A DNA stretch of 22,340 nt from Spizellomyces punctatus DAOM BR117. Taxonomy: Eukaryota > Chytridiomycota > Chytridiomycetes > Spizellomycetales > Spizellomycetaceae. The position numbers were made by a program, and so were the translations under genes. Numbering within the stretch: position 1 is the first letter of the stretch; each line of letters begins with the position of its first letter. Positions 6,764 to 14,402 of the stretch are shown here, in pieces. The stretch is taken from positions 913,548 to 935,887 of the forward strand of contig NW_015971541.1 of assembly GCF_000182565.1 (NCBI RefSeq), in the 5' to 3' direction. Below the pieces are notes generated by a model. That model was not told where the DNA came from, made no database searches, and saw nothing but the letters and a program-made list of their open reading frames with translations.

Positions 6764-6888
6764 GTGAGCTTTGGCACAAGCAACAAATTATTGAACTTGG
6801 GCGTGCGCCCTAAAGTGGTGAATGTGGGGACCATATAAGGTCGTGTACTTAGGTGTTAAAAGCCCTGTATCTGAAGAAATGTGAAATA

Positions 6889-6918
6889 TAGTGCGGAGCC
6901 GATGGGTATTGGCACTAG
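6889..6918 (+). repeat. Left terminal inverted repeat of element 1
   Basis: Thirty bases (TAGTGCGGAGCC...TTGGCACTAG) exactly match the reverse complement of 9005-9034. The first two bases are the duplicated TA target. The preceding bases are TA, so the element is entered from a TATA context. Confidence 0.95.
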
Positions 6919-7061
6919 TACATAGATTCCAACCAATTTAATCATAATTTTACTCGATTTAGACTCATGAACTATGGTTTGTTTGATCCAAAAATCCTAT
7001 GTAAGTTGTCGTCGCCCATTTTCCCAGGCTTTCATCTTTTTCGACAGATACAGATATCATC

Positions 7062-8941
7062 ATGCCGCCAAAGAAAAAGCAAAAGCTTGAAAAACCTACT
7101 TGCTTACATACCTGTAACAAGACTTCCTTTGCAAAAGCTTTCCTGCCAAACTACCACCAACGGCTTCTAGATTACATCGCCATCATCCATCAACTCGCCG
7201 ACCACGCTTCCCACGCGCTGAAATTCTACATCCTATCTGCACCATCCTTCACCGTGAACGAGGAGACCATCGAAGCGATTCTCTATCTTCTCAACAAGGG
7301 GGAGGCTTGGCATCCAAGAAAGGAAGCAAAGAAGGCATGGCGGGATTGTTTGCTGCCATATGTTCAACGGTACTGCCAAATCGTCGGCTTCGTTCATCCA
7401 AATCTACGAGGCGAGCAGCAATCAGTCAATTACCTGACAGCGAGTATGATGACGAACCTGAAAGTCAACATTCAAGAGCATTGCATGACGATGCTGCTCC
7501 GATATATCAATCTGCGGCTTGACGTGAAGGGACGGAAAGGGCAACTGCCACCGAAAAGCGATGCGCGAAAAGCTTTCTTTACTCGGCTACGCTATTTAAA
7601 GTCAGTTTTTCTTTTTGATATCGTGCCCGAGTCGCTGGATGACTTGACCGCTGAAGAGAGTGAGCTTCTAGAAGAGATCTGGACACTTAACCTGCCATTT
7701 CCTGATCAAGACAAGCCGCTTGCCTACCTCATTGCCATTGACGCAATGTCCTTCTTTCCTGCATACTGTCGGTTGTCAAGCCTATATGAAAAGCATGGAT
7801 TTCGACGGTTCAGTGCGATACCTCTGCGCCGCTCGCTCATCCAAAGCAACATTCGCATCGACTCTAAAATCCTGTACCAGCATATCCTTTGCATCACGCA
7901 GCGAGAAGCAGAAGCCGTAGAGAAGGTCGATTTATGGTTGCGCGTCTGTAATCTACGTACCAAAGCTTTTCGGTCTCGCTGTGGTATGCATTTTGAAGGC
8001 TCGATCACGACGGACGGAACCTCGGTGTCTGTATACCTAAAGCACCCAGAAGCTGACAAGTATGGAAAGCGCAGTGGTGGGAAAAAGTCAGCAAACATGA
8101 TGGAGGCAGAGGTTAAAGTGCAATACGTGGAGAAAAACTTACCTGCTTGTCGGGCAGCAGAAAACATTGTTGTCATTGACCCAAACAAGCGCGATATTCT
8201 CTACTGCCAAGACAGCAATGGTACGACGTTCCGTTACACTGCCAACCAGCGAGCCATGGAGACAGGTAGCCGGCGATTTGCAAAGAGACGGGAAGCAATG
8301 AAGAAAAAAGCGGGAATTGACCTCATAGAATCACGAATACCATCTCACAAGACGATGAATCTCATGGACTTCACTCGCTACCTTCTCGTTCGCCGCGCTG
8401 ATTGGGATCGTCGCAAGTACTTCTATTCGCATCCTGCCCACACGCGGTGGAAGTGGCATGCATTTATAAACCGTCAGAAGAGTGAATCGAACCTCATATC
8501 CAACTTGCGCAACAAGTACGGTGAAAACTTTACCATTGTGATGGGAGATTGGAGCGATGCCGGTCAAACTGCAAGATTTCAGACCTCATCAAAGACGAAA
8601 GGTTGGCGCACCCTCTTTACAACCGCATTGATTGTTTTCTTCTTGATGAACACAAGACCTCATCTGTTTGCCCTCGCTGTTCATCCTCTGAGTTTGTTGA
8701 GAAAGGCTTCAAAGAACGACCTCATTCAAGACCTTGGCGGCGACATGAAGGCAAGGTTGAAAAAGTCCATGGATTGCTGGGTTGTACCAACCCTAACTGT
8801 TTGCAGCAAGCCTGGATGATGCGCTACTGGAATCGAGATACACTGTCAACCTGCAATATGCTAACGATCGTGCCATCAATGTTGGATGGGCACTGTAGAC
8901 CAGAGGTGTTCAGCAGGAGGAGTGTTCCAGCCGTAGCGTAG
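7062..8941 (+). pseudogene. Fanzor (TnpB-like RNA-guided nuclease), one frameshift
   Basis: ATG at 7062 follows the left repeat by 143 bp. The N-terminus (MPPKKKQKLEK) is a nuclear localisation signal. A long helical region leads to a RuvC nuclease: RuvC-I with Asp373 in VVIDPNKRDI, then the GDWS motif near 495-498 that replaces the usual RuvC-II Glu in Fanzors. The open frame continues to a stop at 8819, but after TLF (codon ending 8618) the family-like sequence moves to the -1 frame. There it reads YNRIDCFLLDEHKTSS, with the relocated catalytic Glu expected for Fanzors, then a zinc ribbon (CPRC...CTNPNC), RuvC-III Asp in YWNRD, and a C-terminal RPEVFSRR, stopping at 8941. One missing T in the TTT at 8616-8618 explains it. 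As written, the protein would lose the Glu, the zinc ribbon and RuvC-III, so it should be inactive, unless the base is a sequencing error or frameshifting occurs. No intron is apparent. Confidence 0.88.
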
Positions 8942-8960
8942 CATAGATTAGTTAGATTAG

Positions 8961-9034
8961 CTTTTCCGAACTGGTTGTCGCCGGTTCAATCCCTGGTGCG
9001 GGTGCTAGTGCCAATACCCATCGGCTCCGCACTA
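8961..9034 (+). ncRNA. Probable Fanzor guide-RNA scaffold (fRNA/omegaRNA) at the right end
   Basis: Fanzor and TnpB guide RNAs are known to come from the segment between the nuclease stop codon and the right element end, with the guide just beyond it. Here that segment is conserved: 8961-9013 aligns without gaps to 13391-13339 of element 2 (43/53 identical). It can fold a stem GAACTGG/CCGGTTC (8968-8974 with 8981-8987) with loop TTGTCG. A weaker stem pairs TGGTGC (8994-8999) with GTGCCA (9008-9013) and includes wobbles. The differences in element 2 keep the first stem paired. The predicted guide would begin at 9035 (AATAGTAATATCAAG). The 5' end of the RNA is unknown, and it may overlap the Fanzor coding end. 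Transcription is not shown by sequence. Confidence 0.6.
9005..9034 (-). repeat. Right terminal inverted repeat of element 1
   Basis: Exact reverse complement of 6889-6918 over 30 bases, ending CTCCGCACTA. The final TA is the target duplication. It also forms the 3' end of the predicted guide-RNA scaffold. Confidence 0.95.
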
Positions 9035-9175
9035 AATAGTAATATCAAGAATGTTATGTTACAACCGTCCCATCGCCTGCTGCGCACCAATGCGTGTATG
9101 TCATCCTTTGTTGCCATAGCACCAGCCTACCCAGATCCGCCCCTCACCGACGGTTGCCTGCATTCGCCTTGTGCG

Positions 9176-10583: not shown

Positions 10584-11894
10584 CTATCCACTCGCAACAG
10601 GACTATTATCTTCCTCTGATCCACGCCTGGAGACCCCCTCCAACACAATACTCTCAACATCCACATCCCGATTCGTAATCACCAAATTATCCCTATGAAC
10701 AACACACCCAGAATCAACGTACCCCAACAACCCCTCAATTTCCGAGCTTTTGTGGCCCTTGATACGCAAACACTCTGCAAACGAATAATTGACAAGGCCC
10801 TTTCCGATTTCAATGACGGTTTCTGTATCGTTTTTGTGAATGATGGTGAGGAGTCGGACGCATTGTTGGGCATTAAATGTTCCTTCGACGCGGGCGACAC
10901 CAGCTGCAAATAAAGAGGATCGGTGTCTGTTCATGACGGCGCGGACGGCGCCCTTGTCGAGGTAAATGGCGCCAAAGGATTTAAGACCATGGAGGATCCA
11001 CCATTTTCGATCCATCATGGCGTTGGGGCGGGGTAAAAAGTGGGTTCCGTGGGTTGGACAAAATGGGGTATTCGGGGTATGGGATTGGATTTCGGCGAGA
11101 ATGGTGGGAATGAGAGGGGGGTGGGAGAGTGTGATGATGGTTGTGCATCCTGCCGCTGTTGCAAGATCGGCTGCAACGAGTTTGGTCACCATCCCCCCTG
11201 TACCCAGATGAGAGCCAGGTGACGACACAGTTACTTTATCTCGTAGTTCCCCTACATCCTCTACAACACGTACAGGCCTCGCATCCGGATTCGTCTTTGG
11301 GTTATCCGTATATAAACAATCCACATCGGTCATGAGGAAAAGGTAATCGGCATTGACCATTCCAGCGGTAATAGCCGACAAGGTATCATTATCCCCGAAC
11401 CGAATCTCTGCATTCGACACGGTATCATTTTCATTAACGATGGGGACAACATTCATTAACAAGAGTTCTTTGAATGTGTTACAGGCGTTTAGATATTGGG
11501 TCCGTTCCGCCAGGTTCTCCCTAGTAAGCAATACTTGTGCAATGGGGACATCAAATTGCGCAAAGAGACCATCGTACAATGCCATTAATCGCCCCTGTCC
11601 AACGGCCGCGACGGCTTGTTTGACGGCTAAATGCTTTGGACGGCGGTCAAGACCTAGACGGCGTAACCCAACTCCAACAGCACCTGATGAGACGACAACG
11701 ATTTTGTGCCCGGCGGAACGGAGGTGGACAATGGTTTCGACCAGGAGGGAGAGGGTGGAGAGTTTGGGGAGATGGGTTTGTTCATCGCAAATGGATGTTG
11801 TGCCGAGTTTGAGGACGATGGTGAGAGAGGTGGGATTGGTTCGTCGGGGATTGGTAGGTGGAAGTGGCGGTGTTGAAATGCGTGCAGTTGTCAT
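10584..11894 (-). CDS. PRO1: Glutamate 5-kinase (proline biosynthesis, first step)
   Basis: A single exon of 436 residues, near the 428 of yeast Pro1. It phosphorylates glutamate with ATP to gamma-glutamyl phosphate in the cytosol. Motifs in order: amino-acid-kinase N-terminus VLKLGTTSI with Lys29, VVSSGAVGVG (about 67-76), QVLLTRENL, the glutamate-binding VNENDTVS (about 153-160), FGDNDTLSA, LMTDVDCLYTDNP (about 187-199) and GTGGMVTK (about 231-238). A C-terminal PUA domain occupies roughly 310-415 (DKGAVRAVM..., GKGLVNYSF, RDNLVI). Unlike animal and plant P5CS it is not fused to gamma-glutamyl-phosphate reductase, as usual for fungi. It converges with the ELM1-family gene, with a 126-bp gap. 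Confidence 0.97.
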   Translation of the reverse strand: MTTARISTPPLPPTNPRRTNPTSLTIVLKLGTTSICDEQTHLPKLSTLSLLVETIVHLRSAGHKIVVVSSGAVGVGLRRLGLDRRPKHLAVKQAVAAVGQGRLMALYDGLFAQFDVPIAQVLLTRENLAERTQYLNACNTFKELLLMNVVPIVNENDTVSNAEIRFGDNDTLSAITAGMVNADYLFLMTDVDCLYTDNPKTNPDARPVRVVEDVGELRDKVTVSSPGSHLGTGGMVTKLVAADLATAAGCTTIITLSHPPLIPTILAEIQSHTPNTPFCPTHGTHFLPRPNAMMDRKWWILHGLKSFGAIYLDKGAVRAVMNRHRSSLFAAGVARVEGTFNAQQCVRLLTIIHKNDTETVIEIGKGLVNYSFAECLRIKGHKSSEIEGLLGYVDSGCVVHRDNLVITNRDVDVESIVLEGVSRRGSEEDNSPVASG

Positions 11895-13179: not shown

Positions 13180-13317
13180 TCTTATGAGCATAGAGTTTTT
13201 TGTTGGGTGGGCGAGTAGTAAGATTGGTTTGTCAAGCGTGTTTTGGAATGTGGGTGTGTGAGTGGTATATGGGAACGGGCAGGTCCTTGTATAGTTGTGT
13301 TTTTTGTTATATATTTT

Positions 13318-13347
13318 TAGTGTAGAGGTGACAGAAACTGGCACTAG
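13318..13347 (+). repeat. Terminal inverted repeat of element 2 (guide-RNA end)
   Basis: Reads TAGTGTAGAGGTGACAG...CTGGCACTAG. It matches the reverse complement of 14010-14039 at 25 of 30 positions and the element 1 terminus at 21 of 30, with the outer TAGTG and inner TGGCACTAG fully conserved. Confidence 0.85.
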
Positions 13348-13391
13348 CTACTACACCAGGGAATAAACCAGCGACAACTGGCTCGGAAAAG
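13339..13391 (-). ncRNA. Diverged copy of the Fanzor guide-RNA scaffold in element 2
   Basis: Aligned without gaps to 8961-9013, with ten substitutions in 53 nt. Stem GAGCCAG/CTGGTTT keeps all seven pairs despite five of the ten changes falling in it: one G-C becomes A-T on both sides, one U-G becomes C-G, and two Watson-Crick pairs become wobble. Loop TTGTCG is identical. A further change lies in the second stem and stays pairable (C-G to U-G). The predicted guide lies beyond the element end on the minus strand (AAAATATATAAC, from 13317 leftwards). Whether it is transcribed is unknown. Confidence 0.5.
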
Positions 13392-14009
13392 CTAAGCTAC
13401 TACTAGGCAATTATACACGCAATACGTAACGGTTGGTTCTAACCGGATAACTGCCCACCACCACACGCGGTCCCTACTAGGCCTTGATCCAGAACTCTTG
13501 ATGGCATTGAAGCCAGACTCTTGCATCCAGGAGCAAATCGACTGGGCAGCGTCACAAGCTGGTGGATTTTCAGTGACAAGGCTTGGAGACTAAAAACTGC
13601 ATGTCAGCGACAGAATGACAGAATGAAATGATGCAATCAGTACATACCAACCAAGCTCAACTAATGTGGCAGTATAATAACAGCTTTGTTGGTTCCGAGT
13701 GGTTGCTGCTGGTTCTAGTTGGTTGTAGTCATCGGGAGGGCGAGGTCCTCGGCACCACCACACATCTGCATTCTCATGGTTGGACTTGACAGTCGCGATG
13801 AGGGTTGCGCAGATGCTTTGCGAGTCGAGGATGGGTAAAGAGGAAAGAGGGAAGAGGGAGCAGGTCCCCCTTTTATAGACCTTCGGCATGCGCCTCACCG
13901 CAGTTTAAAAGAAAAAAACATTACAATCCATGCCACACGGTTTTGAGCGATAGAGGGGGTGCTGATTATGCGATATGATTAACCGGATTAATCCGGATAA
14001 AAATGGGTC

Positions 14010-14039
14010 CTAGAGCCATTTTCAATCACCTCCACACTA
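14010..14039 (-). repeat. Terminal inverted repeat of element 2 (left end of the element)
   Basis: Reads CTAGAGCCATTTTC...CACCTCCACACTA on the plus strand, the imperfect inverted partner of 13318-13347. The closing TA at 14038-14039 is the presumed target duplication. Read on the minus strand the flank plus TA is CATA. Confidence 0.85.
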
Positions 14040-14402
14040 TGTATATATTCTACGAGGCATTAGAGTTTCCACATAGATCCGATTACGTCAGCATAGTCCC
14101 CGCTCGGCCACATTTCGTTTAAGGCATCCTTTTGCACTTGGCAAGTTGCGGACTTTTACTTGTCAGAAATCACTTTATATTCCTTTCTACATGGTATTCC
14201 AAAGACGACCAGGTACGATCCGCTACTCTGCGCTTGTATCCCGATGATGGAGAGGACCTTTGTTATGAACGAAAACTAACAATATCCACATTCTCGTTCC
14301 ATCTTTTGCGGAAAAAACGGTTTTATCTACAAGAAACTAAGAAAGTGAGTAGATCCTTATATCGCAACAAAACAGGATAATGAAAAACTAAAAAACTTGC
14401 AG

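Follow-up and report, generated by a model that had tools for sequence, protein, structure and literature searches.

Evidence for selection on RNA shape in a probable right-end omegaRNA scaffold of a Spu-1 (Fanzor1) element from Spizellomyces punctatus

Does the block at positions 8961-9034 of this DNA belong to a structured RNA, and does the pairing that it shares with a second block at 13318-13391 reflect selection on that RNA? Both blocks lie in the window, i.e., the whole stretch of 22,340 nt analysed here, which is located on contig C5 of the searched genome (24.0 Mb, 29 contigs). The first block forms the right end of a mobile element with the following parts:

6889..9034, plus strand: Spu-1 (Fanzor1) element of about 2.1 kb, TA to TA (terminal repeats and inverted repeat)
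6887..6890, plus strand: TATA at the place of the SpuFz1 target-adjacent motif CATA (sequence)
6889..6918, plus strand: left terminal inverted repeat, beginning with TA (pattern match, G000:C5:920436-920465)
7062..8819, plus strand: Fanzor1 open reading frame; SpuFz1 match over residues 1 to about 520, with the frame lost beyond (PDB 8gkh)
8621..8941, plus strand: C-terminal part of the nuclease (zinc finger) in another frame (match to the 8gkh C-terminus)
8961..9034, plus strand: omegaRNA (fRNA) scaffold, 74 nt (fold, alignment, published homologue PMC10432273)
8968..8987, plus strand: stem-loop 1, 8968-8974 with 8981-8987, loop TTGTCG (99.0% of alignment cells paired)
8994..9034, plus strand: stem 2, eight basal pairs, 8994-9001 with 9027-9034 (97.7% of cells paired)
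9005..9034, minus strand: right terminal inverted repeat (pattern match, G000:C5:922552-922581)
9035..9049, plus strand: predicted 15-nt guide in flanking host DNA (by the published 14-15-nt extension)

Both 30-nt terminal repeats fit one shared pattern without mismatch, and a 36-nt inverted repeat of 94% identity bounds the element. The reading frame at 7062-8819 matches the S. punctatus Fanzor of PDB 8gkh with 1011 bits (query 2-530), and the 8gkh C-terminus is found again at residues 25-130 of the translation of 8549-8938; this second frame runs from about 8621 to a stop at 8939-8941 and covers the remainder of the 8gkh chain. A single intact frame with complete RuvC and zinc finger was not found in 6889-9034, where the nuclease is spread over two frames. 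The gene looks like a close SpuFz1 paralogue with a broken frame, and by its sequence we class the element as a Spu-1 copy, not as a working nuclease. Of 20 other canonical left ends fetched, 19 have CA before the TA, as do 24 of 30 left ends of nuclease-less copies (ghosts); across the window, CA precedes 118 of the 1940 TA sites. CA is absent from the element at 6889, a one-base departure seen in one of the 20 other canonical copies, so that membership in Spu-1 rests on the other features. Elsewhere in the window, positions 10584-11894 (minus strand) encode a protein with AA_kinase and PUA domains, presumably a glutamate 5-kinase-like enzyme.

The scaffold sits 3′ of the nuclease stop and reaches the end of the terminal repeat. 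It contains two stems, including the 7-bp stem-loop 1, and the last bases of the terminal inverted repeat form the 3′ arm of stem 2. Conservation runs up to the TA, and the flanks beyond differ among 60 loci, save for the pairs L026/L027 and L032/L033, which share flanks. Compared with shuffled sequences, the scaffold and its counterpart at 13318-13391 fold with z-scores of −3.13 and −3.27 (0 of 200 and 2 of 200 shuffles as good). According to PMC10432273, SpuFz1 binds an RNA of 88-90 nt, published for four Spu-1 loci, which consists of a 75-nt two-stem scaffold and a 14-15-nt guide derived from the flank, and the variable 14-15-nt 3′ extension is visible in small-RNA reads. The combination of a SpuFz1-homologous reading frame with a published SpuFz1 omegaRNA of the same position, the same two stems and a variable 3′ extension supports the original prediction of an fRNA scaffold, and we are highly confident that 8961-9034, where this Fanzor1 element has its right end, is a guide-RNA (omegaRNA) scaffold. 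The RNA type is not new, as scaffold, guide, small-RNA reads, ghosts and structures are already in print for S. punctatus.

Could the element instead be a tRNA-derived SINE or another Pol III gene? We consider this hardly conceivable. The stretch GGTTCAATCC resembles a B box, but ARAGORN found no tRNA in the window, Rfam returned nothing at gathering score, most ghosts carry GGTTTATTCC, and the copies terminate in inverted repeats with TA. Together, ARAGORN, Rfam and the TA-ended inverted repeats rule out a tRNA or SINE identity. As a separate observation, window positions 8935-8993, near the start of the scaffold, hold A-box-like and B-box-like stretches, which could be an internal Pol III promoter.

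The counterpart of the scaffold belongs to a second element on the opposite strand:

13318..14039, minus strand: ghost Spu-1 element, 722 bp, without nuclease gene (own repeats, related scaffold)
13318..13391, minus strand: ghost omegaRNA scaffold (alignment, fold)
13303..13317, minus strand: predicted guide of the ghost (flanking sequence, L031)
14038..14041, minus strand: CATA motif at the left end of the ghost (sequence)

With both repeats and a scaffold present and the nuclease absent, 13318-14039 agrees with what Saito et al. 2023 (PMC10432273) describe as 'ghost Spu-1' loci. Genome-wide, the canonical repeat has 72 matches and the ghost left repeat 117 (up to three mismatches), and the tally in PMC10432273 is 134 ghosts next to 42 loci that have a Fanzor gene, full or partial. 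Lengths measured for 30 ghosts are 573-795 bp; the conserved region of ghosts is about 550 nt according to the same paper.

As had been noted, 8961-9013 aligns with 13391-13339 without gaps (43 of 53 positions identical), and five of the ten differences fall in stem 1, all with pairing kept. They comprise A-U to G-U, U-G to C-G, a two-sided G-C to A-U (two differences) and G-C to G-U. For stem 2, one pairable difference had been claimed and the remaining four assigned to unpaired segments. Pairability holds, but stem 2 contains two differences (8999 and 9000), so that those four are not all unpaired. Both are fully compensated at 9029 and 9028, outside the block first compared (C8999-G9029 to U-A, G9000-C9028 to A-U). 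Across the full 74 nt there are 19 differences. Nine lie in stems 1 and 2, and neither scaffold loses any of the 15 pairs. When substitutions of the same kinds were placed at random, all 15 pairs survived 881 times in 200,000 trials; among the 83,614 trials that put nine or more changes into the stems, they survived 92 times. The loop TTGTCG, described as invariant, is identical in the two elements and nearly, but not strictly, so among 109 copies, with the variants TTATCG (L015, L043), TTCTCG (L114) and TTTACG (L118). The original prediction took these two elements as indicating selection on RNA structure; alone they are insufficient as proof, since they represent two subfamilies apart by few events.

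The wider comparison used an alignment of 109 right ends, 70 of them distinct, from 72 ghosts and 37 canonical copies. The canonical rows are 36 of 40 right ends plus L065; L203 is partly masked, and L204-L206 were scored apart. Ghosts came from a first set of 40, 30 of which were obtained as loci, and from 74 more tried among the 100 left ends listed of 117; for 27 of the 74 left ends first taken, the right end was not found. L076, L088, L091, L099, L110 and L115 were dropped as cut or partial, and L061, L062 and L066, also partial, were left out. Of 33 dropped ghosts, 31 were refetched nearer the left end (L172-L202), and in 25 of these a right end could still not be recognised over some 330-850 bases; they are truncated, longer or of another kind. 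Ghost counts therefore omit about a quarter of the listed ghosts, i.e., those for which no right end was found. Nine further right ends were scored outside the alignment (L178, L188, L191, L194, L199, L115 and L204-L206), and pairing holds in 129 of their 135 cells. Stem 1 is lost in L192.

Among the 70 distinct rows, 98.3% of 1046 pair cells hold a standard pair; with one arm shifted by one to three columns, the paired fraction falls to 33-53%. In simulations that kept the observed number of changes in each column, on a tree built from the scaffold, a mean of 82.7% was paired, and 0 of 2000 runs reached 98.3%. Covariation was scored with tests of our own, which are R-scape-like but not R-scape. 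The stem-1 pair 17-27 ranked first among all column pairs, yet with an E-value of 1.17 all-against-all; the stem-2 pairs 44-77 and 45-76 reached E-values of 75 and 80, since their changes split the two subfamilies about once. No pair was significant all-against-all (60 simulations, tree from the scaffold itself), and only when the test was restricted to the 15 structure pairs did 17-27 pass, at about 0.006. Within 30 ghosts, on a tree for which the scaffold was left out and the element body used, columns 17 and 27 undergo eight and nine changes with a phi of 0.74, and 13 of 19,999 null runs scored as high. Among 50 distinct ghosts, 17-27 scored a G of 25.6, compared with 11.3 for the next pair. 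The states at 17-27 in the 72 ghosts are G-C (51), A-U (14), G-U (3), A-C (3) and U-C (1), so that the unpaired A-C is as frequent as G-U.

These columns call for caution. Columns 16-17 and 27-28 are CpG sites, as are 44-45 and 76-77 in canonical copies, and frequent transitions at such stem columns need no selection. The compensated changes might accordingly be neutral, produced by CpG decay on both arms and the shared ancestry of a few subfamilies. The stem-2 class differences and the stem-1 change from G-C to A-U are indeed transitions at CpG sites, and the tree needs about one event for the stem-2 changes. Another process, gene conversion among copies, could move both arms jointly. Neutral decay is, however, at odds with the association at 17-27 within ghosts, which exceeds the body-tree null while other close polymorphic site pairs are associated much more weakly, and with overall pairing above the tree null. 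It also fits poorly with the loop CpG at columns 23-24, invariant in the 109 copies, and with L178, a right end scored outside the alignment that carries a compensated transversion. L178 led us to lower our rating of neutral decay somewhat, from unlikely to quite unlikely.

A further explanation would make the pairing a by-product of DNA ends, with sub-terminal and terminal repeats needed by a transposase and no selection on RNA in these copies. The 3′ arm of stem 2 is itself terminal repeat, and stops break the nuclease gene in many copies, as this explanation would allow. Stem 1, however, lies outside the repeat and yet keeps pairing in 99.0% of its cells, and RNA is in print for sister loci (PMC10432273). 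Moreover, left and right repeats of ghosts differ where the RNA must pair: position 7 is G in 30 of 30 left repeats (by eye G in 96, A in 3 and T in 1 of the 100 listed) and A in 72 of 72 right repeats, which pair there with scaffold A45. The left/right difference probably goes back to a single old event, and further differences between the two repeats lie outside the stem. We regard DNA ends without RNA selection as very unlikely. Selection on the folded RNA shape of the scaffold is supported by the sequence comparison, and here the larger alignment backs the original prediction, within the limits set by CpG sites, few events and the all-against-all test.

Rare copies extend this picture. The right repeat of L178 (C3:293160-293470) is of a third kind, which ends CAATACACTA, and comes with a matching 5′ arm. 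In L178, pair 46-75 shows a two-sided change from G-C to U-A that is not at a CpG, stem 2 is fully compensated, and its own fold contains a stem 2 of ten unbroken pairs. The third-kind right repeat of L178 and L204 (C9:735300-735500) ends AATACACTA, and distal stem 2 differs; L204, which adjoins a Fanzor remnant on C9, has G-A at pair 46-75. The combination of a third-kind repeat with the usual 5′ arm breaks pair 46-75 in five of the 72 ghosts (L039, L080, L098, L108 and L120) and also in L191 and L194; these seven are possible hybrids. For each of the three right-repeat kinds in the genome, at least one copy has the scaffold arm to match. On C9, two decayed Fanzor copies (L061 and L062), with protein 56-57% identical to that of the window copy, keep the whole of stem 1 with another loop (GAACCAG-TTTACG-CTGGTTC). 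They diverge from each other shortly beyond GTATAGGC, and no repeat ends were recognised in the sequence around them. The ghost at L118:109-186 has the TTTACG loop of this divergent lineage and may also be a hybrid. The left/right difference at position 7 and the retention of stem 1 in divergent copies can be read as signs of constraint at the RNA level.

Which transposase would read these ends? According to PMC10432273, a transposase flanked by Spu-1 repeats was not found. Comparing the 72 canonical ends with Fanzor matches by eye, we likewise found no pair at element distance without a Fanzor; long spans between canonical ends are taken to be nested insertions, since split Fanzor genes lie inside them. 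The genome has two DDE_3 matches. At C3:531540-534565 (L067/L037) lies a single-copy Tc1/IS630-type transposase element with an uninterrupted frame of 405 codons (L037:116-1333, minus strand) that matches DDE_3 and HTH_23 (Pfam). Its 38-bp inverted repeats occur nowhere else in the genome (up to three mismatches), its ends are TA on the left and AA on the right, and a ghost flanks it on either side, at distances of about 655 and 168 bp. The DDE_1 and Transposase_1 families had no match in the genome; control genomes were also silent, so that absence is not implied.

Out of 31 positions, the two C3 repeats share 23 and 22 with the left repeat of ghosts, 20 and 21 with the canonical repeat, and 19 and 19 with the right repeat of ghosts; canonical and ghost left repeats agree with each other no better (23 of 31). 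In a background of 415,332 31-mers from the window and L001-L060, with places scoring at least 24 set aside as Spu-1 ends, only four reach 20: the right repeat of the C3 transposase (22), the Spu-1 right end of L039 (23) and two others (20). On these matches, the kinship of C3 and Spu-1 repeats looks real. That the C3 transposase is the missing transposase of Spu-1 and the ghosts is a guess, which we consider possible but somewhat doubtful. A protein search returned 28 relatives, 40-70% identical, including proteins of Phlyctochytrium arcticum and Clydaea vesicula, which we take to be chytrids; among viral contigs, no relative was confirmed. Decayed relatives on C2, C7 and C1 showed no inverted repeat longer than 13 nt in the surrounding stretches taken. 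Transposase remnants lie near Spu-1 copies with a combined P of about 0.001 for four loci chosen post hoc (0.03 without C3), and a fifth DDE_3 fragment, on C5, is not near Spu-1 copies (P 0.6). We give this nearness little weight, as it may reflect clustering of all mobile elements. Literature searches, including the available parts of PMC3627910 and PMC10711439, did not find the C3 element named in print.

Two further observations concern the C3 locus. Across C3:530173-535496 the flanking ghosts are inverted with their left ends outward, resembling a composite transposon, and the element also contains a 244-codon reading frame whose SUKH-3 match, at 19.9 bits, stays below the cut-off of 23. 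The C3 transposase is a concrete candidate for the transposase of Fanzor elements and bears on what Fanzors do for the elements that carry them. Since the terminal repeat is also a guide-RNA arm, a changed transposase specificity would force a matching change in the scaffold; if true, the transposase and guide-RNA machines would be tied together in evolution.

For the two window copies, element, scaffold, conserved pairing and motif are observed here, while we infer expression and behaviour from published SpuFz1 work. A transcript would pass through stem-loop 1 and then stem 2, with the end of the terminal repeat as the 3′ arm of the latter, and continue into about 15 nt of host DNA past the TA; this flank would serve as guide. 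A Fanzor loaded with such RNA would cut at CATA followed by the guide sequence, i.e., at the locus without the element. SpuFz1 cuts beside CATA, and any base change in this motif abolishes cleavage (PMC10432273). RNA of the 6889-9034 copy, like ghost RNA, could work only with a nuclease made elsewhere in the genome, because its own nuclease looks broken, and would not cut its own empty site, given the TATA there and the published motif requirement. One arm of a guide-RNA stem is at the same time a DNA end for a transposase to read, and support for the importance of both SpuFz1 omegaRNA stems comes here from evolution rather than biochemistry.

In the TnpB omegaRNA of ISDra2, the guide RNA likewise stems from the right end of the element and the guide from the flank, as in Spu-1. 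In contrast to it, the SpuFz1 omegaRNA lacks a pseudoknot (PMC10432273). The seven-bp stem-loop 1 is common to all three Fanzor1 structures, those of SpuFz1, GtFz1 and PpFz1, whereas the second part differs in the GtFz1 and PpFz1 omegaRNAs, which are 150 and 75 nt long (PMC11423790). The closest likeness is to SpuFz1 and Spu-1 as described in PMC10432273 and PMC3627910, with which the window elements share the nuclease, the element of about 2.1 kb, inverted repeats of about 30 nt, the TA, a two-stem scaffold of 74-75 nt and nuclease-less ghosts. Unlike SpuFz1, the window copy has a broken nuclease frame and TATA for CATA, and unlike some Spu-1 copies it is without the one-base G insertion at column 26.
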